Source of the DNA: a virus
IMG/VR virus record: IMGVR_UViG_3300005747_000188
Span: 1 to 24,472 of that record
Direction: 5' to 3' (one strand)
Length of the DNA: 24,472 bases
In this document: piece after piece, positions 1-24,472 of the stretch
Layout of the letters: every line of letters begins with the position of its first letter
Numbering within the stretch: position 1 is the stretch's first letter
Position numbers and translations under genes: made by a program
The notes under the pieces: model-generated
What the model saw: only the letters and a program-made list of their open reading frames with translations
Databases searched by the model: none
What the model was told of the DNA's origin: nothing

Positions 1-1337
1 TTTATATGGTCTTTATCGTAACTATTGAAACCAGATGTTGAAAGCGATTCTGTTTGAAGATTTGTTACTAACTCATCATCTTCATTATAATCATGGACTG
101 TAAAATGTCCTGTTGATGTGTTAGCTTTTACTCCAAATGTTAATCCATCCATTCCATATCTATTTTTCATCACATGAAACCTACCAGTGCCATTTACTTT
201 ATCTTTTGCCTTTCTAGACAGTGAGAGACAAAAATCAGTTATCATAATCTTATCATAAGATCCTGCTGCCTTGTCTCCTTCAATGACATCATCTTTTGCA
301 CCTGCTCTATTCACTTGAGAAACTGACCAAATTGGCACTTTTAATTCTCTAGCAAGTCCTTTAGTGCTTGTATAAATATCATCTATTTCTCCCTTACGAT
401 CAGTTGTTTTCTTTCTTGTTCCTAAAAGATCAACATAATCTATAATTATTAAATCAGGTTTAATATCTAGATCTTGACATTTTCTAATATGCGATTCTAA
501 TGTATGAATAGTTGCTTTACCCATTGGGAATTCTTTAATAACTAATTTACCTGGTATTTTTGGTATTATTTCCTCTACTTTATCTTTATGTTGTACTATA
601 TTATTTACTGGTATTTGTGTAAAAAAGGCATCATATCTTCTACCTACATAATCTTCACCTAATTCTAAAGTGTAATGTAAAACATTATAACCTGCCCTAA
701 CGGCAAATCCCCCTAGTGCTACTAAAGACCAACTTTTCCCCCCACCTGGATTTCCAAATATTAAACCAAAATCTCCACTACCTAAACCTCCTTGTAGTAA
801 TTCATTTATTCTATCCCAAGGTGTTGGTATTGGATTTCTTGTATCTTCTCTATATCTGGTTTCAATATCTAAATTATATTCATGACCTATATTTTTATCA
901 TTTCCTGCCCTTAGAGCATTTTCTACTAATAATTTTATAGATTCATAATCCCCAGCTTTTAATAAATCTACTGAAGATAATAATGCTTTTTTTAATTGTT
1001 GGTTCTTACAAAATGCTGAGAATTCTTCTTGTACATATTTTAAATCCTCATCACTAGCTATATATGCTTCTCTAAGTTGTTCCTTAATAGAAATTTGTAG
1101 TACTTCATTTTCTACTTTTTTAACTTCAACTTTTAAAATATCTAATGATGGTGTTGTATGATATTTGTCATAATATTTTATTATTTCTTTTATAATCCAT
1201 TTATGAGCTTGATTATTAAAATCCTCCTCATTTAAAATATCATATACATTTGTTAAAAATTCTTTATGGGTTAATAAAGAAGATAAAACCTTGATTTGAA
1301 ATCCTTTTCCGTATTCCTCTATTGATTTTAATGTCAT
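1..1337 (-). CDS. Replicative DNA helicase, DnaB/T4 gp41-like (3'-truncated by window edge)
   Basis: This is my own translation of the open frame running from an ATG at 1337 to the window edge, at least 445 residues with no stop, so the C-terminus is missing. The protein is a RecA-fold hexameric helicase that would unwind the phage replication fork. Residues 1-150 form the helical N-terminal domain. Walker A is GNPGGGKS at 195-202, Walker B is DLIIIDY at 295-301 after a hydrophobic strand, and SVSQVNR at 338-344 fits the DnaB-family H4 region. An Arg/Lys-rich C-terminal part (KNRYG near 391) fits DNA or nucleotide contact. It starts 5 bases after the stop of the upstream RNase H gene, so it is probably co-transcribed and translationally coupled. 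The leader AATAAGTTAT carries no Shine-Dalgarno. DnaB/gp41 family assignment is firm; gp41 orthology rests on the neighbouring T4-type genes. Confidence 0.93.
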   Translation of the reverse strand, partial: MTLKSIEEYGKGFQIKVLSSLLTHKEFLTNVYDILNEEDFNNQAHKWIIKEIIKYYDKYHTTPSLDILKVEVKKVENEVLQISIKEQLREAYIASDEDLKYVQEEFSAFCKNQQLKKALLSSVDLLKAGDYESIKLLVENALRAGNDKNIGHEYNLDIETRYREDTRNPIPTPWDRINELLQGGLGSGDFGLIFGNPGGGKSWSLVALGGFAVRAGYNVLHYTLELGEDYVGRRYDAFFTQIPVNNIVQHKDKVEEIIPKIPGKLVIKEFPMGKATIHTLESHIRKCQDLDIKPDLIIIDYVDLLGTRKKTTDRKGEIDDIYTSTKGLARELKVPIWSVSQVNRAGAKDDVIEGDKAAGSYDKIMITDFCLSLSRKAKDKVNGTGRFHVMKNRYGMDGLTFGVKANTSTGHFTVHDYNEDDELVTNLQTESLSTSGFNSYDKDHI

Positions 1338-1342
1338 ATAAC

Positions 1343-2374
1343 TTATTTATTTATAACTAATTTTTTGAAAACATCTTCTAACCAAAAATCTAAATTTCTG
1401 ATCATTCCACCTAATTTGTCTTCATTATATAATGCTGTGAACTGCTCAGGAATATAATTTAAATCTTTAGATTCTACAATCCTATCTAGATATTCCTTAT
1501 CATTTTTTCCTAACATTGGATTACTTAAATCCATTACTTTATAATTTTTTTCTAATTCTTCTACTCCTTGAATTACTCTAGCATATACTACATGATCTTT
1601 GAATTTCTTTTCACATATATCAAAAATATCATCAAAAGTTAAAATTCTTTCTGTTAATTCAGGGAATTTTTTAAATAAACCTTTTTCACCTAATCCCTTA
1701 ACTCCTTTAATTTTATCTGAATTATCACCTAAAAGTGTTTTATAAAGAATAAAATTTTGAGCAGGCATATTATATTTTTCTTTTATAACATCTTCAGTAT
1801 AATATTTTTTCTCAATTGGTCTATAAACTATAACATTTTTGGAAACCAATTGAAGAAAATCTTTATCACTAGATATTATAAATACTTTATCATCTTGGTG
1901 ATTTGGTAATTTATCACTTAAATACGCGATAATATCATCCGCTTCTGCTTTATCTAAAGATAATGTTTTAACTGGTAGAGTTTTTAGGTAATGTATTACT
2001 CTTACTATTTGGTCTACTTTAGAATCATCTTCATCATCTAAATTTTCAAATACTTCCCAATTAGTAATTCGTTGTAAATTTCTCCCTGATTTATATTCAG
2101 GGAGTAAATTTTTTCTATTTGCTGTTGAGCCTGCTCCATCAAAAACTACATAGACTTGATCTGGTTGAGTTTGACGAATCATAGCTCCTAATGATCTAAA
2201 GAATCCACCTAAACCTCCTATATGAACTCCATCTGGATTAACCATATTAAGCATTGCAAAGTTTCTAAAAAATAAATTTAATCCATCTATTAATAATATT
2301 CTATTACCTTCAGACAGACTCTTATCATTCTCCTGAGTATCACCCAGGAGTTCAAGTAATTCTTTCTTTTTCAT
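1343..2374 (-). CDS. rnh: T4 RNase H-like 5'-3' exonuclease / flap endonuclease
   Basis: This 343-residue protein belongs to the FEN/5'-3' exonuclease family, which removes RNA primers and flaps during lagging-strand synthesis. The metal-binding acidic residues appear in the expected order: D30 in LLIDGLN, D79 in VVFDGAGS, E144/D146/D147 in KAEADDI, D170 and D172 in SSDKDF, and D217/D220 in LLGDNSD. The helix-three-turn-helix DNA clamp follows directly (GVKGLGEKG, about 224-232). Length is close to T4 RNase H (about 305 residues) plus a short N-terminal extension. It lies 5 bases after uvsX and 5 bases before the helicase, in a replication operon. No Shine-Dalgarno precedes the start. The family is certain; the symbol is inferred from T4-type gene content. 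Confidence 0.9.
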   Translation of the reverse strand: MKKKELLELLGDTQENDKSLSEGNRILLIDGLNLFFRNFAMLNMVNPDGVHIGGLGGFFRSLGAMIRQTQPDQVYVVFDGAGSTANRKNLLPEYKSGRNLQRITNWEVFENLDDEDDSKVDQIVRVIHYLKTLPVKTLSLDKAEADDIIAYLSDKLPNHQDDKVFIISSDKDFLQLVSKNVIVYRPIEKKYYTEDVIKEKYNMPAQNFILYKTLLGDNSDKIKGVKGLGEKGLFKKFPELTERILTFDDIFDICEKKFKDHVVYARVIQGVEELEKNYKVMDLSNPMLGKNDKEYLDRIVESKDLNYIPEQFTALYNEDKLGGMIRNLDFWLEDVFKKLVINK

Positions 2375-2379
2375 AATTT

Positions 2380-3456
2380 TTATTGTGGTTCTTCTATATA
2401 AGAGGTAATATCATTATAATCTTGTTCCTCTTCTACAATTTGAAAATCAGTTCCACCCAAAATATCTTTCCAAGCTTTCCCATTTTCATCTTTATAGTTT
2501 TTTAATTCTTTATCATTATCATTGATAAACCCATGAGGTGTCATAACTATTCTACCTCTAGTTGTAACTCCATTAATGTGATTTTTATCAATTTGAAGAT
2601 TAACACGTTTAGCAAATTCTACCTGTTTACCATCTTTAATTGCTTTGATTTTAGATGTTCCTGCATTTGAAATATTACCAAATGTGACTACAAATGTTGA
2701 ATCAAACCACATTGCAAATCCTCCTTTATTCATTAATTTAGGTTTACCCATTGGTGATTCTGCTTTTGCTGTCCATACTTTATTAATACAAACTAATGTA
2801 TTAGTATGAGGTGATGATTCTTTTCTTGATAATGTAATTCTTTGATTAACATTATTTCCAAACTGAGTAGACATTGCACCCGCATTCCATTCGTTGTTGT
2901 TTTTATTTGATTTTATAGACATTTCACAAGGTACTGATCCTATTGAATCCCATAAGAATAATAAATCATATGGTAAATTACCTTTTTTCTGTTCATCTAT
3001 TAAATCTAAAATAAACCCAGCTACATCTTCTATAGAATTTATTGTTTCTCTATCAACATAGACAAATTCACCTTCATAATTTACAATTTCTCCAGTTTCT
3101 TCATCTACTACTTCTTTAACATCTAACCCCATTTGTTGAGCATGTTCCCAATTCCATTTCATCTCAGTAATAATGAAAACAGGTAATATTCCTCTCTTTT
3201 GAGCTGAAACTGCTGCTTCTAATAATGCTGTTGTTTTACCTGTATCTGAGTGGCCTCTAAGTAAAACAATATGACCCATAGGAATACCTGGAATAGATGT
3301 AACATCTTGAAATGCTTGTGATAGTGGAATCCATGATTGATCTTTAAACTTAACGTTTTGTCTAAGTCCCTTCTTTTCTTTGAAGGAACTTAAATCAAAC
3401 TTGGATTTTATTTCAGCAGAGACTGCTTCATGTAATGATTTTTTAACTCTAGGCAT
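2380..3456 (-). CDS. uvsX: UvsX-like RecA-family recombinase
   Basis: This 358-residue ATP-dependent strand-exchange protein would drive recombination-dependent replication and repair. Walker A is GHSDTGKT at 68-75, placed after a short N-terminal segment as in UvsX. The Walker B strand is LLFLWD ending at D170, followed by SIGSVP, as in RecA-fold recombinases. The segment MSTQFGNNVNQR just downstream fits the region of the DNA-binding loop. The C-terminus is acidic (IVEEEQDYND). It sits between gp32 and RNase H with gaps of 11 and 5 bases, matching functional coupling in T4, where gp32 and UvsX act together on single-stranded DNA. The start has an AAAGTTAT leader and no Shine-Dalgarno. Confidence 0.93.
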   Translation of the reverse strand: MPRVKKSLHEAVSAEIKSKFDLSSFKEKKGLRQNVKFKDQSWIPLSQAFQDVTSIPGIPMGHIVLLRGHSDTGKTTALLEAAVSAQKRGILPVFIITEMKWNWEHAQQMGLDVKEVVDEETGEIVNYEGEFVYVDRETINSIEDVAGFILDLIDEQKKGNLPYDLLFLWDSIGSVPCEMSIKSNKNNNEWNAGAMSTQFGNNVNQRITLSRKESSPHTNTLVCINKVWTAKAESPMGKPKLMNKGGFAMWFDSTFVVTFGNISNAGTSKIKAIKDGKQVEFAKRVNLQIDKNHINGVTTRGRIVMTPHGFINDNDKELKNYKDENGKAWKDILGGTDFQIVEEEQDYNDITSYIEEPQ

Positions 3457-3467
3457 ATAACTTTAAT

Positions 3468-4310
3468 TTAAAATGGTAAATCATCCTCAAATAAATCATC
3501 AAATTCATCTGATTTTGCTTTCTTAGGTGAACCTTGTGTTGCTAAACTAAATGCTTTTTTAGGTTCTTGTTTTGTTTCATTTTTAATATCACTATCAAAT
3601 TCAGATGCTGGTTCAGATACTATTGAATCCTCACTACCTTCATTTCCTGATATGAAATTTTGTAATTCATCTTTTAACTTATCATAAGTGTATTTATATC
3701 TTTCTTCTAGTAATTGTGGTTGATTCTCTAACCATGTATTTACTTGATTAGCATCTTCACTCAAGGGTGTTTGTTTTGGTTTTGGTCTTAAACTAAGAGC
3801 AAATCCTGGTCTATCAACTACCTTAGAGGCGTTAACAACAAAATCAAATCCTTCAGCTACATCTGTAAAATCACCATAATCCTCATCATCAGCAATTGAT
3901 AATAATTCCATATAGATAGTTTTACTAAATTCAAATAAACGAACACCTTTATCTTCTTCTCCTCTAACTATAACAGGAGCAAATACTCTCAATTTTGGAT
4001 CTAACTTTTTAGCTAGTCTCCAATTTTCAGAATCACTTGTTGTTCTTAATTTTTTAGTAAAATCAACAATTGGATCTTGTTCCCCCCAATTAGATAATGC
4101 AACAATTGGATATTTTCCAATACCATAATGCATATATATTTCTTGAAATGGGTTGTTTTTATTTATTAATGATGGGACAAATCTAATTTGAAATTTTCCC
4201 TCTTGTCTTGGTTTCCAATAAACTAATGTGTAGTCTTTTTTCTCACCTGTTTTTGGTTTGGCATCCTGATTTAAAGATGACAAACGATTCTTAATCGCGT
4301 TTAAATCCAT
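3468..4310 (-). CDS. T4 gp32-like single-stranded DNA-binding protein
   Basis: This 280-residue protein coats single-stranded DNA and coordinates the replisome. The N-terminal block (LNAIKNRLSSLNQ) resembles the gp32 cooperativity domain. The core DYTLVYWKPRQEGKFQIRF, followed by IYMHYGIGKYPIVAL, is the start of the gp32 OB-fold. A linker of about 65 residues rich in Ser, Glu and Lys leads to an acidic tail ending FEDDLPF. Two features are odd. There is no cysteine anywhere, so the zinc site of T4 gp32 (His plus three Cys) cannot form. The last residues match the bacterial SSB tip (DDDIPF type) rather than the T4 tail as I recall it. The gene lies just upstream of uvsX (11-base gap). Family assignment is strong from fold pattern plus position. 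Confidence 0.88.
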   Translation of the reverse strand: MDLNAIKNRLSSLNQDAKPKTGEKKDYTLVYWKPRQEGKFQIRFVPSLINKNNPFQEIYMHYGIGKYPIVALSNWGEQDPIVDFTKKLRTTSDSENWRLAKKLDPKLRVFAPVIVRGEEDKGVRLFEFSKTIYMELLSIADDEDYGDFTDVAEGFDFVVNASKVVDRPGFALSLRPKPKQTPLSEDANQVNTWLENQPQLLEERYKYTYDKLKDELQNFISGNEGSEDSIVSEPASEFDSDIKNETKQEPKKAFSLATQGSPKKAKSDEFDDLFEDDLPF

Positions 4311-4380: not shown

Positions 4381-4842
4381 CTATGAGAGATCAATTATAT
4401 CGTGAATCTTGGTGTTGAGTTGTTTTAAATCTCCATGTTGGGTAAGTAAAACACAGTTTCTATAGTGTTGCCAATTGATTGGGAACTTGGTGTCAACTAC
4501 ACCACCGTTAAGTTTTTTGATTAGCTCATTTAGAGCATTTATAGTATACAAGGTATTTGTTTCTTTCTTCCTATGTACTAAAATTGTATTAGATGGAATT
4601 TCACTTACATTACCTTGATCAACATTATAAGTAATTACATACTCATCGTTGCTTTTGATATAAAGAACAAACATTTTATTATACATTATACTGTATGTTG
4701 TTGAAAGTTCTTTGACTTTAGACTCAATCTCCTCGGATTTTACAAAAGTGCAAAATAATTTATTGTTCAAATCTCCTAAATTTATAAAGTTATCGTTGTC
4801 ATATTCTATGGTATAAATATCAAGAGTTTGTTCAAAAGTCAT
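4381..4842 (-). CDS. Hypothetical protein downstream of the DNA polymerase
   Basis: I do not recognise this protein. With the ATG at 4842 it has 153 residues. That start overlaps the polymerase stop by 11 bases (ATGACTTTTGA), a normal coupled arrangement. An ATG at 4854 or a TTG at 4887 would lengthen it, but they overlap the polymerase more and gain no Shine-Dalgarno. The sequence mixes strand-rich hydrophobic stretches (YSIMYNKMFVLYIKS) with acidic segments, and has no signal peptide, membrane helix or recognisable catalytic motif. It lies between the polymerase and gp32, so a replication accessory role (clamp, loader or polymerase partner) is possible. That is a guess from position only. 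A hairpin follows its stop codon at 4355-4375. Confidence 0.7.
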   Translation of the reverse strand: MTFEQTLDIYTIEYDNDNFINLGDLNNKLFCTFVKSEEIESKVKELSTTYSIMYNKMFVLYIKSNDEYVITYNVDQGNVSEIPSNTILVHRKKETNTLYTINALNELIKKLNGGVVDTKFPINWQHYRNCVLLTQHGDLKQLNTKIHDIIDLS

Positions 4843-6088
4843 AACTGATTCCATGTGTAATTTTTGTTTTAAGTTTATTTTTTTCAAATACGTTTAATAT
4901 GCGCTCTAGTGTATGTTCTTCAGTATCTTCAAAATCTAATAAGAAAGCGTCATATGTGTATAATACTAATTTTGTTTTTTGATTTTTTAAAATTTTAATT
5001 ATGTCCCATAATATAGTAACGTTTTTTGCTGTTTCCAAATTTTGAAGGAGATAATTAAATAGTTTTTGGGGGCGCATATTCTCTAACTTAGATTTCTCAA
5101 ATTTATAATTAGATATAGGACATTCTATAAAACCTTTAGTTTGAAAATCATTCCATAAATTATCTACAAATTTTTGGATTTTTTGAAAAAATTCAAGATC
5201 CCTATACTGCTCAAATACGCCGCCATAAAGCTGCTTGAACGTAAGTTCTTTAGATTTTTTATAATCCACCCTATACATTTGTGCAAAGGATTCATGAATA
5301 TCATCAGTATCAAACTTATAATCAATAAGATAACTTGCAAGGGTAGGATGATAAGCAGAAATATCAATTTCAATAAATTTATCATTCCTCGGTATGAAAG
5401 ATTTTCTACATCCATTTTCTTTATTTAATGCTGCAAAGTTAACCCCACCAAATCTATTTGATGGTCTTGTTGTTGTTGTTCTGTAATTATATTGTGTGTA
5501 TACTGTACTTCCCCAATCTTGATTGAAGTGTTCTTTGAATAGTTCTGGTGATACTTGTATACCACTCCTTTCGATGGAGTTGAAAACCAAGGGTACTTGG
5601 TTGTTGTAAAACTGGTTGATTGGTTCATTTATATATTGTTTTAGATTGTTATAATTTTTTTCACATGTTTCATAATGCTTTACTACAGGTATAAGTCGGT
5701 TTATATCTGTTTTATTTGGGTTTCTTTGGTTTAAAAATTGGTGAGCTTTTGTAGTCTCCATTTCATACTCCGGTGATAATAATGATATATCATCAACGTT
5801 TTTATGTAAGTAAAAATGTAAGAATTCCTTTTTCCCCCAAACGTGCAACTTATCATAGCTATCAATTAATTCCTTAATATTATCGTTGTTTAAATGCATA
5901 GTTTCACTATGATTTATAGATAAAATAAAACCTTTGCTTGATTCTAAAGGTCTTAAATAAATTAAACTTGTTAAAGTTTTAACAGGATGAGTCTCATAAG
6001 AATAAGGAATTACTTCAATGTAAGCTTCTTTATAACCTTTATTATAGAACTCTTTTAACTGTTCATTATTTTCTATCAGCCAAAACAT
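4832..6088 (-). CDS. Compact family A DNA polymerase (degenerate exonuclease domain, thumb apparently absent)
   Basis: This 418-residue protein is a family A (Pol I/T7 type) DNA polymerase. Key positions line up with E. coli Pol I: motif A D242 in IDISAYHP (D705), DIH at 263-265, motif B K280-x3-F284-x3-Y288 followed by GG (K758, F762, Y766), N345-x3-Q349 (N845, Q849), and motif C D380 in YTYDAF (D882). In motif C the usual His-Asp-Glu is Tyr-Asp-Ala. The palm-entry motif SIERSGIQV (171-179) is only about 30 residues from the TTTRPS block, where Pol I has over 100, so the thumb seems missing. Residues 1-165 resemble a 3'-5' exonuclease fold without its DxE motif (IEVIP instead). T4 itself uses a family B enzyme. 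The ATG at 6088 has no Shine-Dalgarno. Family A membership is well supported; activity is unknown. Confidence 0.85.
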   Translation of the reverse strand: MFWLIENNEQLKEFYNKGYKEAYIEVIPYSYETHPVKTLTSLIYLRPLESSKGFILSINHSETMHLNNDNIKELIDSYDKLHVWGKKEFLHFYLHKNVDDISLLSPEYEMETTKAHQFLNQRNPNKTDINRLIPVVKHYETCEKNYNNLKQYINEPINQFYNNQVPLVFNSIERSGIQVSPELFKEHFNQDWGSTVYTQYNYRTTTTRPSNRFGGVNFAALNKENGCRKSFIPRNDKFIEIDISAYHPTLASYLIDYKFDTDDIHESFAQMYRVDYKKSKELTFKQLYGGVFEQYRDLEFFQKIQKFVDNLWNDFQTKGFIECPISNYKFEKSKLENMRPQKLFNYLLQNLETAKNVTILWDIIKILKNQKTKLVLYTYDAFLLDFEDTEEHTLERILNVFEKNKLKTKITHGISYDF

Positions 6089-6121: not shown

Positions 6122-6709
6122 CTAATTAAGTTTAAGGTAGTCAACAAAACCTAACCATTGGTTGTTTTTTTCTATTAGAGTTGCTGATTTGGTATTTGCT
6201 ATGGTAGAAGTGGTTGAATATATCATAGATAAACTGTCATATAATTGCCATAGAATGGTAGGGTCTTGTGATCTTAATTTATTAAAAGTATTACTACTTA
6301 TTTCTATATAAATGAATTCATTGGTTTTTTTAGCAAAATATTTAACATATGATCCATTTACAATATCTTGAGGTGTTGGTGAAGTTGTAGAATAAGTAGG
6401 TGGTAATTGAATTGGTGAATCTTGAGGAGTGTTTATTTGTTTTGAATAAGTAGATTTACTAACACTACCAAATCTAAGATCTTGAGTATATAAATCTTGA
6501 TTTGGGTTTTCTTTTTGGTTTTTTTCAGATTGAAGATCATCTGATAGTATTAATTCTACTAAATTAGCATAATTTGGTGTTTCACCCGCATAATATTTTC
6601 CACTATAGGTTTCAAAATATATACCATAATAAGGAATTTTAGAATCCTTATAGACTAAATCTCCATTACTATTTAAACCTGTTTTTATTTTATTTTTTGG
6701 GAAATACAT
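6122..6709 (-). CDS. Hypothetical phage protein, probably virion-associated
   Basis: I cannot place this 195-residue protein in a named family. The N-terminal 55 residues are rich in Tyr and Gly (YFPKNKIKTGL, then YYGIYFETYSGKYYAGETP), a pattern I associate with small structural proteins in marine phage genomes. That is recollection, not a search result. A Pro/Thr/Ser-rich linker (about 95-115) leads to a C-terminal region with TILWQLYDSLSMIY. There is no signal peptide or clear membrane helix. It starts 5 bases after the stop of the hub gene and is the last gene of the structural block before replication genes begin, which favours a tail or baseplate role. Confidence 0.65.
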   Translation of the reverse strand: MYFPKNKIKTGLNSNGDLVYKDSKIPYYGIYFETYSGKYYAGETPNYANLVELILSDDLQSEKNQKENPNQDLYTQDLRFGSVSKSTYSKQINTPQDSPIQLPPTYSTTSPTPQDIVNGSYVKYFAKKTNEFIYIEISSNTFNKLRSQDPTILWQLYDSLSMIYSTTSTIANTKSATLIEKNNQWLGFVDYLKLN

Positions 6710-6714
6710 TTCTA

Positions 6715-9700
6715 TTATAATATGTTAACTTTACTATAAATAATTCTTCTTATATCTACTAGAGTATTTGGATTATACCATCTTTTATTATAATCATCAT
6801 TAATACCACTTTTACTTTCATCGTAATAGCTAGAAGTATTTAATCCTCCTGTTTCTAAAACTTTCAAATCAAAATCTAAAGCATTCTTTGATTGTTTTTG
6901 GTTTTTTATACCTTTAAATTTTGATACATTAGATCCAAAAGCACTATAAAGACTACTACGAATTTTATTAAAATCTACTTCAGATGGATTAAAGTGAACT
7001 GGGTCATATCCAGTTGAATAAGTTCCACCCCAACTCATTTTTTCTTCTAATGCTATTTTTACTAATGGAAGTTTTTCCCATTTTTCTCTTGAACTTTTTA
7101 AACCATATGTAGTTCCAGTTTCTAAATCAATTACAGTCATATCTATAGCTATACCTAGATTATGATTTGAACTTCCAGGGTATGCTGTACTTCTAGCTGG
7201 TGATGATGTATATTTAGGATTAAGTTGTTTTCTATAAAATTGAGATGATCTTGTAAATGATCTAAAAGTAGCATTAACTTTATATCCATATCCTGTAGTT
7301 TCATTCACTAACCTATTTAAAAATTTTCTATATCTTTCTTCTATTTGAGGATGTAAACATCCTACTATTTGGTCTACTGTTATTTTTCCACGTTTTGGGC
7401 CCGGGATATTCTGTAAGTGACCATTTGTGTCATTATTAATAAAATAACTAGGTTGGTTTCCATTTTTAAACTCAGGAGTATATGATTCAGATAGTATTTT
7501 TTGTGATACTGGTAGTTCTAACAATTTAGATGTATTTATGTTTGCTCCATCTTTTTTATCATCAATAATTTTTGTAGCTTGTGTCTCTAAAGATGTTTCC
7601 CATTTATTATTAGATAATTTATGGTTAACTTTAGTAATTATAAAGTCTAGAGTCTCTGGGTAGTTTGAGGGTAAAAATCTAGTGTCTACATTTAATCTAT
7701 TATAAATTTTTATACCACTTATCCCTTCCATATCAATTTTAAGGTTAAAAGGTAGAAATCCTACTGAACTTTCTAATGATCCTGTTTTTGAAGATTCTGC
7801 TTGTGCGTAATTAAAATAATCACTAATGATTGCAGGGTTGTTTTTTTCATAAATTTCATTAAAACTACCATCTTTTGATAATCCTAAAGTTTTAAATTGA
7901 TCCTCTTCACTACTATATCTAATAAAACTTTGGTATCTTTTAATCACTAGTTCATTTTGAGATTTTAAAGAAGCATAATTGTAAGCACTCACACCACCAT
8001 CCACTAATTCTGGTTTTATTCTATCTTCAATTCCTTCATTCCATCTTGAGAAAGCAGTTGCTTCTATTCCTGGGATTGATCCATTTGCTGTTGCCCCTAT
8101 AGTAATCATAGAAGCGTAATTTTTACTAATAGTTGTATTCAACCCTATATTATGGATAAAATTTGATGTGTTATTTTTTGGATTATAACCATATATTTCT
8201 AATGTTGTTGGTTCTGAGGGAGTAAAATTAGGGTAAACTTTATTTTTAAAATCATTTAATAGTGAACTTGCTATTTCTTTTATACCTGGTATTGGAGTTT
8301 GATCTATTATTTTTATAGTATTGGTGGTATGATCTATAACAGGTTCTAGATTATTTACATTTCCTAAACATAAATTTATTTCATCACATATATTTTTTAA
8401 GAAATCAAATAAAACAGTCTCACCTGTTTTTCCTGATAGTTTCTGTAGTAAAGATTGAATAAATTCAAAATTTAAATATACATTCATAGGTCTACCATAT
8501 TTAAATTTTCCATCACTACTATAGCCTATAAAGTAATCTATTCCTTCAAACATTTTATTTGTTCCAATATTTTGACCTCTAATATTAAGAAATTCATCAT
8601 TTCTAATAATACAAGATTTTATGTTTGAAGAAATCATAGTATCAATAGCATAACAAATATTTGAATTAGTATCTGTATCTATCTTTAATAATGGAACTTT
8701 ACTTGTAGATTTATTAGATGGTAAAATAGTAGGTATTATAGCTTCTTCAATAAAATCTAAAAAAACTTTGAATTTGACAAAAAATTTATATCTCCCAGTT
8801 CCATCTAAATTAAATTCACCAGAACCACCTACTGATTTTTTAAATTTATCTAGAACAAAAAAATCAACAGTACTTAGTTTTGAAGAAGTATTTATTTTAT
8901 TGTAGTGGGGAAAACCAACAAGCTTATTCCAATTTTTAATTATACCTTTTCTCCATTCAGAAGTAAGACTTGAGGCCTGTTGAGCATTTAAACCTGCTGT
9001 TATCTCAGGATCCATTTTTTTAGTTGTTACATCATAAGGATTTAAAATTTTTCCTATTTTTAAAGGAAGTGTAGGACCATTTACTTGTATTGGGCCAAAT
9101 ACTTCTCCTGGGGATTGTTGTTTTATAGGATCATTATTAAAATCTGTTTGTTCATATAAATCTGCTGATGCTTCTGTAATACCTGTGTAGTATTTTCTAA
9201 CTCTGTAGAACCAAGAATGAATTCTATCTTTGTTTTTTTCGTATTCTAATTCTACAGCATATGATGAAAAAGTAGGATCATCTGAGAATTGGTTATCATT
9301 TGCACCTCCTGCAGCATTTACTTTTTTAAAGTATGTAAAAACTAATTGTTCAAACACTTCAAAACCACCATATAAGTTATTAAATAACACTTTTTGCGCT
9401 CTTATTTTATCATAATTTGATTCAAAAGCTGGGTCTGATAATGAATTTGTTAATTTGTTTGGGTCATAAATTTCATCCTCAGGATTATTTGTAAAAGCAT
9501 ATTCTGAGAATTCCTTTAATTTTCTTTTTGAAGCGAATGCTTCTATTGGAGAATATAACCCATAGGTATCGTTATAATTAGAAAATATATCTTTATTAGA
9601 ACCATATATATATTGAAGAGATGGAATATCAGTTCTTCTCCTTTTTGAAAAAATACCTTGTAATTTTATATCAGGTGGGATAGAACCATCATCTAATTTA

Positions 9701-10995
9701 AAAGCTGGGTTGTTTAAATCTTTTATTGAGAACCCTTCATTTGCGTAAGGATTCATTATATTACCATCTAAGTCTTTTTGGTATTTATTTGAGCCTCCAA
9801 ATACCCCTTGAAACATTGTTATAATGGCAAATTTGATAGCAGGATTTTTATATTTATTTATATTTTCTTGGGCTAATAACTCTTGTTCTTCTGATCTTCC
9901 TACTCCAGTCACACTTAATCTTCCTGATGAGTCATTAGGTGTGCCTGTGTATTCTACATCTGTCAGTATAGCATTTAAAGCCTGATTAGTAGTAGATGCT
10001 ACTGTATAAGTTGTTGTTTGTTCATTACCACTTATACTTTTATCCCACCAATCTCTTAATCTAGTTTTAAATTCAGGGTATAATATATAAAAGTTATCTA
10101 TATTATCGATTTCTTTATTCCTAAATTGTGCTAATACTGCTTGCCTATCAGCATACTCTAATTCATTACCTATTTGTTTAAGTGGTGGTAAATTTATTTT
10201 TAATGATTCTATTACACTACCAATACTCATAATATCTAGATCAATATCATAAGTTCCGTCTGCTGCAAACGTCCATGAAAAATTAGATATTGTACCCAAT
10301 ATACCATCATAATTTCCTCGATTTTCTCTTCTTTTATCCTCTATTTTTTCTAAAAGTTCATAATAATTATCATCTTTTTTAAAGAAATCAGTATCAATTA
10401 AAGTAGGGGACATTGGGGTTAAAGTATCACTTCCAGGTTTGATGTTTTCTCCAGAATCCCAAAAATGACTATTTCCAAATTCTAATAATACTGTATGGCC
10501 TAGTCTTAGGTATAAAACATCTATGATATCAAATTGTTGCCTATTATAGGCTTTTAATTTAACTCTTGATTTTTTAATAGAACCTCTATTTAAATCTTGA
10601 CTATCTATACTAACAATCCCAGGCATTGGAACTATACCAAATTCAGTTCCACCTAATGAAGGATCATTACTATAAGTTCCATTAATGTTATTATACCCTG
10701 TTCTTTGATTATCTTCAGAACCAGCTTTATTAATTCCGTTAAATAAAACATTATTTAATGCTAATTCTTTTCCTGGTGATGTATTATTGACTATAGAACT
10801 TTTGTATTGATTTTTAAGTAAATTTAGTCTTTCTTGAGTTAAAGATACCCCAGAGGCTAATTTAACCCATGCTAATGTAGAATTAAGATAAGTAATTTCT
10901 TCAGCTGTACGTTCTATTTTACCATGAAGTTTTTGTCTTTTGTCGATCTGGAGATCTACATAATCCTCAAATGGTTCTCCTATTATATTTCCCAT
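6715..10995 (-). CDS. Large baseplate hub protein with C-terminal M15 peptidoglycan endopeptidase
   Basis: This 1426-residue protein is the largest gene here. Its C-terminal part carries a metallopeptidase M15 domain of the L-alanyl-D-glutamate/D-Ala-D-Ala type at about 1215-1345. The signature SNHNLGIAID is at 1276-1285, with zinc ligands H1278 and D1285, and WGG followed by YDPVHF gives D1331 and zinc ligand H1334. It would cut host peptidoglycan as the tail penetrates. The preceding 1200 residues contain no family I recognise with confidence. The position after tape measure and LysM genes is where tail systems encode the hub (gp27 or XkdQ type). T4 puts a glycosidase lysozyme in gp5; here an endopeptidase seems to take that role. 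About 80 residues follow the M15 domain. The start lies 6 bases after the LysM gene. Confidence 0.82.
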   Translation of the reverse strand: MGNIIGEPFEDYVDLQIDKRQKLHGKIERTAEEITYLNSTLAWVKLASGVSLTQERLNLLKNQYKSSIVNNTSPGKELALNNVLFNGINKAGSEDNQRTGYNNINGTYSNDPSLGGTEFGIVPMPGIVSIDSQDLNRGSIKKSRVKLKAYNRQQFDIIDVLYLRLGHTVLLEFGNSHFWDSGENIKPGSDTLTPMSPTLIDTDFFKKDDNYYELLEKIEDKRRENRGNYDGILGTISNFSWTFAADGTYDIDLDIMSIGSVIESLKINLPPLKQIGNELEYADRQAVLAQFRNKEIDNIDNFYILYPEFKTRLRDWWDKSISGNEQTTTYTVASTTNQALNAILTDVEYTGTPNDSSGRLSVTGVGRSEEQELLAQENINKYKNPAIKFAIITMFQGVFGGSNKYQKDLDGNIMNPYANEGFSIKDLNNPAFKLDDGSIPPDIKLQGIFSKRRRTDIPSLQYIYGSNKDIFSNYNDTYGLYSPIEAFASKRKLKEFSEYAFTNNPEDEIYDPNKLTNSLSDPAFESNYDKIRAQKVLFNNLYGGFEVFEQLVFTYFKKVNAAGGANDNQFSDDPTFSSYAVELEYEKNKDRIHSWFYRVRKYYTGITEASADLYEQTDFNNDPIKQQSPGEVFGPIQVNGPTLPLKIGKILNPYDVTTKKMDPEITAGLNAQQASSLTSEWRKGIIKNWNKLVGFPHYNKINTSSKLSTVDFFVLDKFKKSVGGSGEFNLDGTGRYKFFVKFKVFLDFIEEAIIPTILPSNKSTSKVPLLKIDTDTNSNICYAIDTMISSNIKSCIIRNDEFLNIRGQNIGTNKMFEGIDYFIGYSSDGKFKYGRPMNVYLNFEFIQSLLQKLSGKTGETVLFDFLKNICDEINLCLGNVNNLEPVIDHTTNTIKIIDQTPIPGIKEIASSLLNDFKNKVYPNFTPSEPTTLEIYGYNPKNNTSNFIHNIGLNTTISKNYASMITIGATANGSIPGIEATAFSRWNEGIEDRIKPELVDGGVSAYNYASLKSQNELVIKRYQSFIRYSSEEDQFKTLGLSKDGSFNEIYEKNNPAIISDYFNYAQAESSKTGSLESSVGFLPFNLKIDMEGISGIKIYNRLNVDTRFLPSNYPETLDFIITKVNHKLSNNKWETSLETQATKIIDDKKDGANINTSKLLELPVSQKILSESYTPEFKNGNQPSYFINNDTNGHLQNIPGPKRGKITVDQIVGCLHPQIEERYRKFLNRLVNETTGYGYKVNATFRSFTRSSQFYRKQLNPKYTSSPARSTAYPGSSNHNLGIAIDMTVIDLETGTTYGLKSSREKWEKLPLVKIALEEKMSWGGTYSTGYDPVHFNPSEVDFNKIRSSLYSAFGSNVSKFKGIKNQKQSKNALDFDLKVLETGGLNTSSYYDESKSGINDDYNKRWYNPNTLVDIRRIIYSKVNIL

Positions 10996-16684: not shown

Positions 16685-16714
16685 TATAAAAAAGAAGTTT
16701 GACTAAACCAAACT
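16685..16714 (-). terminator. Terminator-like hairpin after the HNH gene
   Basis: The minus strand reads AGTTTGGT, TTA, AGTCAAACT-type pairing (about 8 bp with two G-T pairs), followed by TCTTTTTTATA. The stem begins inside the last codons of the HNH gene. The same outer stem is found at 4355-4375. Confidence 0.6.
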
Positions 16715-17182
16715 ATCCTTTTTTTTTCTGTTTTCTTCTACACTTAAGGGTTGTGTATTAGTGTAATGAAATGACCCTCCTTTATTTAAAGGAATAATAT
16801 GATCAATTTCCCAATACTCCCCATAATTTTCCCAACTCATATTTTCATCAAATTTACTTTCTAAATATTCTGAGTATTGACTAAAGGTGCAATCTAAGTG
16901 TTTAATTGTAGATATCATAAAGTTTATTCCTTTTTTTATTTCCTTAGATATTTGTGTTCTTTGTTTTTGAGTCATTTTCTTCTCAGGATTGTTTTCAAAG
17001 AAATTTTTTTTATACTCATTGATTCTTTTTTTATTTTTTTGATAATATTCCTTTTGGTATGATTTATTCTTTTCTTGTCTAGTTGCTCTATATGCTTTAG
17101 AGTATTTTGATTTTTTAGATTTATTTTTTTGATAATATTCTTTATCTTTTGCTTTTTGTTCTTCTGTTGATTTATATTCCAT
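16703..17182 (-). CDS. HNH homing endonuclease
   Basis: This 159-residue protein ends in an HNH nuclease motif: WEIDHIIPLNKGG at 124-136 with D127 and H128, then N142 in YTNTQPL and N151 in EENRKKK. It would make a DNA cut and probably spreads itself to related phage genomes. The N-terminal 75 residues are extremely Lys/Tyr/Gln-rich, with the repeated phrase EYYQKNK and the related KAYRATRQEKN, resembling the short basic DNA-binding repeats in phage HNH enzymes. It is inserted between the tail tube gene and the gp26-like gene, flanked by a terminator on each side, as expected for a mobile gene. There is no zinc-binding Cys pair. The ATG at 17182 lies 3 bases after a TATAAATAT-class site. Confidence 0.88.
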   Translation of the reverse strand: MEYKSTEEQKAKDKEYYQKNKSKKSKYSKAYRATRQEKNKSYQKEYYQKNKKRINEYKKNFFENNPEKKMTQKQRTQISKEIKKGINFMISTIKHLDCTFSQYSEYLESKFDENMSWENYGEYWEIDHIIPLNKGGSFHYTNTQPLSVEENRKKKDSLV

Positions 17183-23487: not shown

Positions 23488-23496
23488 TATAAATAT
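23488..23496 (-). promoter_or_regulatory. ATATTTATA site before the CBM-type gene
   Basis: Overlaps the last base of the fibre stop codon and ends 4 bases before the ATG of the 205-residue protein. Confidence 0.45.
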
Positions 23497-24472
23497 TAGA
23501 AGATAAACCAACCATCACTACCATTACTAACAGTGGAAATTGATTCATATTGTATGTCTAAATCTGTGTATGTTGTGGCTCCATCTATTGTATCAGCCCC
23601 TTGTCTTTGAAGAGTAACTGTATTTGCTCCTGCGGCTTGTGTTAATTTAAATTTAATTTCTCTACCTGGGTATGTAGCTGCATCTGGCATGTTTATTGTA
23701 ACATCTCCTCCTGAAGGGTCTATTAATACAAATTGTTGTGTTCCTGTTAATGTGTAAGGTGAATCTGTATTAGATATAGAAACTGTACCTGTATTTAAAA
23801 GTGAGCCTGAAAGTGTAACAGTTTTTAATAATAGCTCTCCTGTTTCTAATGAACCAGAAATTATATGATTATCTCCATTTCCAATTCTAAGTTGGTTTGC
23901 CATAGAAGCTGCACCTAAACTACCAGATCCTATAATAATATTATTATCTCCTGTTGTTGATTTCCCCGCTGCATAACCTAATAATACATTGTAATCTCCT
24001 GCATCAGAACCCGCATCATATCCTATAGCTACAGTACCTGTACCTCCCGTGGAGGAATGTCCTATGGCTATAGTACTCTCTTTAGCATATGTACTTCCTC
24101 CAATTGCTATACCATATGAAGTATTTGTAGTATTTGCACCTGATCCAATTGCTATATTATAACTTTGACCATCATTATCAGCAGCATTACCCATTGCTAT
24201 GTTGAAAGCTCCCGCGGCAATTGCATTTCTACCTATAACAACATTAGTATCTGAAGAATTAGTTGCTCCTTCTCCTAATGTAAATGAACCTGTTTCTGCT
24301 ATACTAAAAACAGTTCCTCCTGATGCTTTAAACTCTACACTAGAACCTGAAACTAATAATGATCCTGTTATTTGAGCATCTCCTGTGAATGGGAAAGTGG
24401 ATGGTAAATTTGTTAATTGAGAACCATCACCTACAAATGAACCACTAAATGTTGAACCTGAGATTGCTGTTG
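23496..24472 (-). CDS. Tail fibre protein with YadA-like head repeats (5'-truncated by window edge)
   Basis: The frame is open from the window edge to the stop at 23496 (at least 325 codons), so the true start lies outside. An internal ATG at 24194 should not be taken as the start, because repeats continue upstream of it. The upstream part contains GDGSQLTNLP, a motif common in phage fibres. A run of about eight 13-16-residue repeats follows (IAIGSGA, IAIGHSS, VAIGYDAG, VLLGYAAG), as in trimeric adhesin heads (YadA/Hia type). The C-terminal 90 residues have a fibre-tip pattern: VTINMPDAATYPGREI, then a final DGWFIF. The protein is probably a trimeric fibre that helps recognise the host. Confidence 0.85.
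   Translation of the reverse strand, partial: TAISGSTFSGSFVGDGSQLTNLPSTFPFTGDAQITGSLLVSGSSVEFKASGGTVFSIAETGSFTLGEGATNSSDTNVVIGRNAIAAGAFNIAMGNAADNDGQSYNIAIGSGANTTNTSYGIAIGGSTYAKESTIAIGHSSTGGTGTVAIGYDAGSDAGDYNVLLGYAAGKSTTGDNNIIIGSGSLGAASMANQLRIGNGDNHIISGSLETGELLLKTVTLSGSLLNTGTVSISNTDSPYTLTGTQQFVLIDPSGGDVTINMPDAATYPGREIKFKLTQAAGANTVTLQRQGADTIDGATTYTDLDIQYESISTVSNGSDGWFIF
23877..24242 (-). repeat. YadA-like head repeats within the fibre gene
   Basis: About eight tandem units of 13-16 codons, each beginning with two or three hydrophobic residues and Gly ([VI]-[AL]-[IL]-G). They start VVIGRNA, IAMGNAA, IAIGSGA, IAIGGST, IAIGHSS, VAIGYDA, VLLGYAA and IIIGSGS. The pattern fits a left-handed beta-roll trimer. 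Units differ enough that this is protein-level repetition rather than recent DNA duplication. Confidence 0.8.

Follow-up and report, generated by a model that had tools for sequence, protein, structure and literature searches.

A 418-aa open reading frame (ORF) on a virus fragment of 24,472 nt (the window) encodes a family A DNA polymerase fold that is under purifying selection. The protein belongs to divPolA1, a thumb-truncated family described in 14 phages by Yutin et al. 2024 (Virol J 21:200, PMC11348598). It forms a near-obligate gene pair with a small protein, orf157, inside a replication module of SSB, RecA, FEN and DnaB genes. It is probably an accessory polymerase of low processivity, acting in gap filling or recombination alongside a separate replicase.

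Family A assignment and relatives

The polymerase ORF was uninterrupted. A tblastn search of phage records matched gp001 of Flavobacterium phage immuto (35.2% identity over residues 1-414, 99% of the protein; E 4e-72), which is annotated as 'DNA polymerase family A'. Further matches were found in an uncultured 484 kb phage and in Microcystis phage Mel-JY01. Scans of IMG/VR returned hundreds of relatives, and in one scan at least 590 of 600 candidate stretches coded for a divPolA1 relative. An alignment set of 128 non-redundant members was assembled with identities of 27-78% to the window protein.

The window polymerase by itself had no Pfam match at E ≤ 10, and PF00136 (family B) was absent from its Pfam scan. 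A direct search of the single sequence against the PDB gave nothing useful; a family profile was needed, and this matched E. coli Klenow at 2.3e-9. The immuto homologue scored above the cut-off for DNA_pol_A, PF00476 (42.7 vs 34.3 bits). The family A identity originally predicted was thus supported by the Klenow profile match and by fold matches to Pol I, though the window sequence alone lacks a Pfam hit. The dN/dS of the polymerase was 0.08-0.13. Chance, frameshift and missing sequence were excluded because the 128 relatives share the same architecture, including the thumb gap, and because of this dN/dS range.

The divPolA1 family is characterised by a truncated thumb, retained palm catalytic residues and the loss of all exonuclease aspartates, with replication genes downstream; the same genome also has a regular polymerase, from family A, B or C (Yutin et al. 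2024, PMC11348598). The immuto phages MW353175-MW353177 are named there among the carriers. The window protein, from a different viral fragment, has immuto homology, a truncated thumb, intact palm residues, lost exonuclease aspartates and a downstream replication block. It was assigned to divPolA1 because it shows every trait of the family that could be tested, and the novelty implied by the original prediction was therefore not sustained.

Table 1. Polymerase features, partner gene and replication genes in the window (positions in nt)
Feature	Position	Strand	Basis
divPolA1, thumb-truncated and exonuclease-dead family A DNA polymerase, 418 aa	4832..6088	-	ORF, model, profile alignments
N-terminal exonuclease-like domain, residues 1-130, no conserved acidic triad	5699..6088	-	Bst Pol I structural alignment, conservation
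Thumb remnant, residues 176-208 (G of palm-entry motif to R208 = R668)	5465..5563	-	Model, Klenow profile alignment, 128-member alignment
Motif A DISAYHPTL, residues 242-250; D242 = D705, H247 at E710 steric-gate position	5339..5365	-	Klenow profile and 128-member alignments
Motif B (O helix) KELTFKQLYGG, residues 280-290	5219..5251	-	Klenow profile and 128-member alignments
QKLFNYLLQNLE, residues 341-352, R841 to Q849 region, E352 invariant	5033..5068	-	Klenow profile and 128-member alignments
Motif C YTYDAFLLD, residues 377-385; D380 = D882, E883 replaced by A/S	4934..4960	-	Klenow profile and 128-member alignments
orf195, conserved upstream neighbour	6122..6709	-	207/224 eligible loci
orf157, conserved partner, HRKKxxNTLYTINALN motif	4381..4854	-	Gene order, homologue searches, dN/dS
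gp32-like single-stranded DNA binding protein	3468..4310	-	
UvsX/RecA-like recombinase	2380..3456	-	
5'-3' exonuclease (FEN / Pol I N-domain type)	1343..2374	-	
DnaB-like replicative helicase, runs off window	3..1337	-	

Predicted structure

The AlphaFold2 model of the polymerase (pLDDT 94.9, pTM 0.91) showed a Klenow-like fold. The top PDB matches were Pol I enzymes of family A (Foldseek E 9.1e-18). The best VIA-align result placed model residues 1-418 onto residues 300-874 of Bst Pol I (Z 26.4, rmsd 3.6, 393 residues).

G176 of the palm-entry motif lies 32 residues from R208, the equivalent of R668, and this distance was 20-38 residues across the 128 members. The Klenow profile alignment jumped by approximately 100 residues at the thumb (profile 165-197 aligned to chain 200-232, and profile 181 onward to chain 304 onward). 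Model residues 181-188 formed one short helix, and most of the stretch from there to the strand at 210-213 was loop; no thumb is therefore built from other sequence. No thumb helices were found in the model. With 32 residues in place of the thumb and a model without thumb helices, the protein is a thumb-truncated variant and not an ordinary Pol I. A hidden thumb was ruled out on the same model and on the gap common to the 128 relatives.

The N-terminal domain of the model aligned with the exonuclease domain of Pol I. E6, E62 and D100 were its only conserved acidic columns in the 128-member alignment and therefore do not make up an exonuclease triad. The original prediction had proposed approximately 30 residues between the palm-entry motif and the TTTRPS block, no Pol I thumb, and an exonuclease-like N-terminus without an active site. 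It had also called for a structure prediction and comparison with Pol I. The measured spacing, the acidic columns and the confident Pol I-type fold agree with it on each point.

The second thumbless family, divPolA2 (barbavirus type), is similar in having a family A palm, no ordinary thumb and no exonuclease, and in occurring beside a PolB. It differs in its N-terminal globular domain, which is unlike known domains, whereas the window N-terminus aligns with the Pol I exonuclease domain. Its gene neighbourhoods are variable while that of divPolA1 is constant.

Active site

In the Klenow profile alignment D242, K280, F284, Y288, N345, Q349 and D380 corresponded to D705, K758, F762, Y766, N845, Q849 and D882 of Pol I, and Q341 to R841. 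The seven equivalences had been predicted and were recovered in both the profile and the 128-member alignments, as were the predicted Tyr-Asp-Ala of motif C and the Gln at the R841 position. The equivalents of R668, D705, K758, Y766, Q849 and D882 were invariant (128/128 members). In Pol I, D705 and D882 hold the catalytic metals.

Other positions around the nucleotide site were replaced throughout the family. The E710 position was His in 128/128 members and the E883 position Ser or Ala in 128/128. Tyr occupied the H881 position in 127/128 and the R754 position in 120/128. Most members had Gln, Asn or Ala at the R841 position, and an invariant Glu (E352) was found at that of A852. The invariant His and the loss of R754, H881 and E883 were overlooked in the original prediction. 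Because the changes are uniform across the family, the altered set suggests remodelling of the site, not its decay. The window protein resembles the large fragment of E. coli or Bst Pol I in its exonuclease-like domain, palm, fingers and the seven equivalent residues, and differs from it in the absence of about 90-100 thumb residues and in the replacement of E710, R754, R841, H881 and E883.

Gene order and the conserved partner orf157

A T4-type replication cluster had been proposed for the window, and its components (gp32-like SSB, UvsX/RecA-like recombinase, FEN and DnaB) were all found. orf157 was located downstream of divPolA1 in 237 of 244 eligible loci. It was followed in eligible loci by SSB (188/201), RecA-like (156/165), FEN (126/135) and helicase (93/103) genes, and orf195 was located upstream. 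When orf157 was used as the seed, divPolA1 was present in 56/56 loci with enough upstream sequence, a sample of the loci nearest the window rather than a broad one. Clear homologues of the polymerase and orf157 co-occurred in the same six annotated phage records, and in immuto the orf157 homologue is gp002.

The first 23 nt of orf157 overlap the end of the polymerase gene, an arrangement suggestive of translational coupling. The dN/dS of orf157 was 0.014-0.058 in three usable pairs, indicating stronger purifying selection than on the polymerase in those pairs; pairs with two further loci (L008 and L023) were left out, as differing start codons had misaligned them. orf157 matched no PHROG family and had no consistent Pfam match. 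Its fold search gave no Foldseek match with E ≤ 0.001, and the best VIA-align result (Z 6.8 over 64 residues) was to a common arrangement. A known thumb, clamp or RegA-like fold was rejected on these results. Any role given to orf157 is a guess because it has no recognisable fold relative.

Additional polymerases and primases in related genomes

A second polymerase was sought in 26 large relative records because the window record is a 24 kb fragment in which its own would not be visible. One was found in 22/26, of family B in 16 and a long family A in six, and in 11/11 of the records of 125 kb or more. PolB and long PolA were never found together (0/26). Neither was detected in four of the 26 contigs (51, 69, 70 and 120 kb), which may be fragments. 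Eight records, these four among them, were searched for a family C polymerase, and none had one. The intact PolB of relatives carried an exonuclease domain, and in the immuto group the long PolA retained a DTETTGL-type (DxE) exonuclease motif where read. In the nearest large relatives the second polymerase was of the T4 gp43 type (phrog_262), a family B enzyme, including split forms; the window polymerase differs from it in family.

DnaG homologues were found in 7/12 records tested: G001 (the nearest large relative), G002, G008, G009, immuto, Mel-JY01 and LR756508. All Toprim_4 matches were below the cut-off. A role for divPolA1 as a stand-in for a missing primase was rejected as not needed where a DnaG homologue was found.

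Three of the nearer large relatives (L049, L293+L295 and L294) had a PolB gene split between motif B and motif C, while more distant relatives had it intact. The two parts in L049 (475-2268 and 2531-3496) encode 597 and 321 aa. The second half begins with a conserved 'MKHxEDxPW...YVDTDS'. The gap holds differing small genes, including an ORF in L295 that looks cytidylyltransferase-like by eye. A conserved ORF of approximately 241-244 aa directly after PolB (L047:3129-3863, L048:3135-3860 and L295:2214-2936) has the look of a gp45-type sliding clamp by eye; it matched no Pfam or PHROG family named sliding clamp. Three relatives (L314, L316 and L318) were in MAG contigs labelled Flavobacteriales, Winogradskyella and Flavobacteriaceae, a hint of Bacteroidota hosts, and one more distant relative was in a MAG labelled Rickettsiaceae.

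Proposed role

The original prediction offered two options, an accessory polymerase beside one encoded elsewhere or a minimal replicase. The second polymerase in 22 of the 26 large relatives favours the first and disfavours the second. divPolA1 is a Pol I-type polymerase of which palm, fingers and an inactivated exonuclease-like domain remain, and it is likely to be catalytically active. Since it would hold DNA only loosely, it would add few nucleotides each time it binds. Like bacterial Pol I, it may fill short gaps or extend FEN-processed ends and recombination intermediates, in concert with SSB, RecA, FEN and orf157, and genome replication would be left to the second polymerase. orf157 could be a tether or regulator of divPolA1 and may make up in trans for the grip that the polymerase has lost. 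The Pol I fold, invariant catalytic residues, second polymerase, gene order and purifying selection point to this accessory role. Against it, the replaced E710, R754, R841, H881 and E883 may mean that catalysis is altered or absent, and the conserved operon position fits core replication equally well. Searches of the literature gave no measurement of divPolA1 enzymatic activity. On activity and on involvement in replication, Yutin et al. 2024 (PMC11348598) take the same position.

A doubtful variant is a two-subunit polymerase in which orf157 would give the primer-template grip and the replaced site, with His at the E710 gate, would give an unusual substrate choice.

That divPolA1 is instead the principal replicase or one of two equals, with processivity supplied by the gp32-like SSB, helicase and orf157 and the 'regular' polymerase as the auxiliary, is unlikely. 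The constant replication block contains divPolA1 and not the second polymerase, and Yutin et al. 2024 (PMC11348598) observe that the gene surroundings of the regular polymerases vary. The regular polymerase also switches family between relatives while divPolA1 stays. However, an enzyme that cannot proofread, has no thumb and has a changed nucleotide site would be poorly suited to copying 155-190 kb, and the co-resident PolB or long PolA has an exonuclease domain or motif.

Relaxed sugar selection is less probable still. E710 is the sugar gate of Pol I, and E710A in Klenow relaxes the exclusion of ribonucleotides. The His found in all 128 members, changed as a set with R754, H881 and E883, could accordingly admit ribonucleotides and yield RNA or mixed primers or transcripts, and the possibility of an RNA polymerase role has been raised for divPolA2 (Yutin et al. 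2024, PMC11348598). However, a bulky His could itself act as a steric gate, the F762 and Y766 equivalents are retained, and primase is not missing from the seven records with DnaG. Last, divPolA1 might lack catalysis and serve as a polymerase-like scaffold or regulator, binding primer-template and orf157. This would fit the lost thumb, exonuclease and R754, R841, H881 and E883 positions, but is very unlikely because such a protein would have no need of D242, D380, K280, Y288, Q349 and R208, all unchanged across the 128 sequences at identities as low as 27%.

The thumb of right-hand polymerases is usually thought necessary for holding primer-template DNA. A widespread phage family that lacks it, and that nearly always has another polymerase at its side, provides a natural test case for palm and fingers on their own. 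The near-obligate pairing makes orf157 a concrete candidate for replacement of the missing grip, and the His that all members have at the sugar gate is a concrete residue for testing. In the literature searched divPolA1 was named only in two versions of Yutin et al., and nothing on the family was found under thumbless or E710-ribonucleotide topics. The orf157 partner and the consistently altered nucleotide site around intact D705, D882, K758 and Y766 go beyond the text of Yutin et al. 2024 (PMC11348598), which does not discuss the His at the E710 position or the orf157 pairing; its neighbourhood figure may show orf157.

Other features of the window

Upstream of orf195 a 1426-aa protein (window 6715-10995) has, at residues 1214-1336 and so close to the C-terminal end, a VanY / M15 peptidase domain. 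An HNH-endonuclease-like ORF (16703-17182; sub-threshold Pfam match) adjoins the tail tube and sheath genes and is a possible homing endonuclease. The ORF running off the right end (23496-24470) contains repeated 'AIG' motifs which, by eye, resemble trimeric adhesin or tail-fibre repeats.
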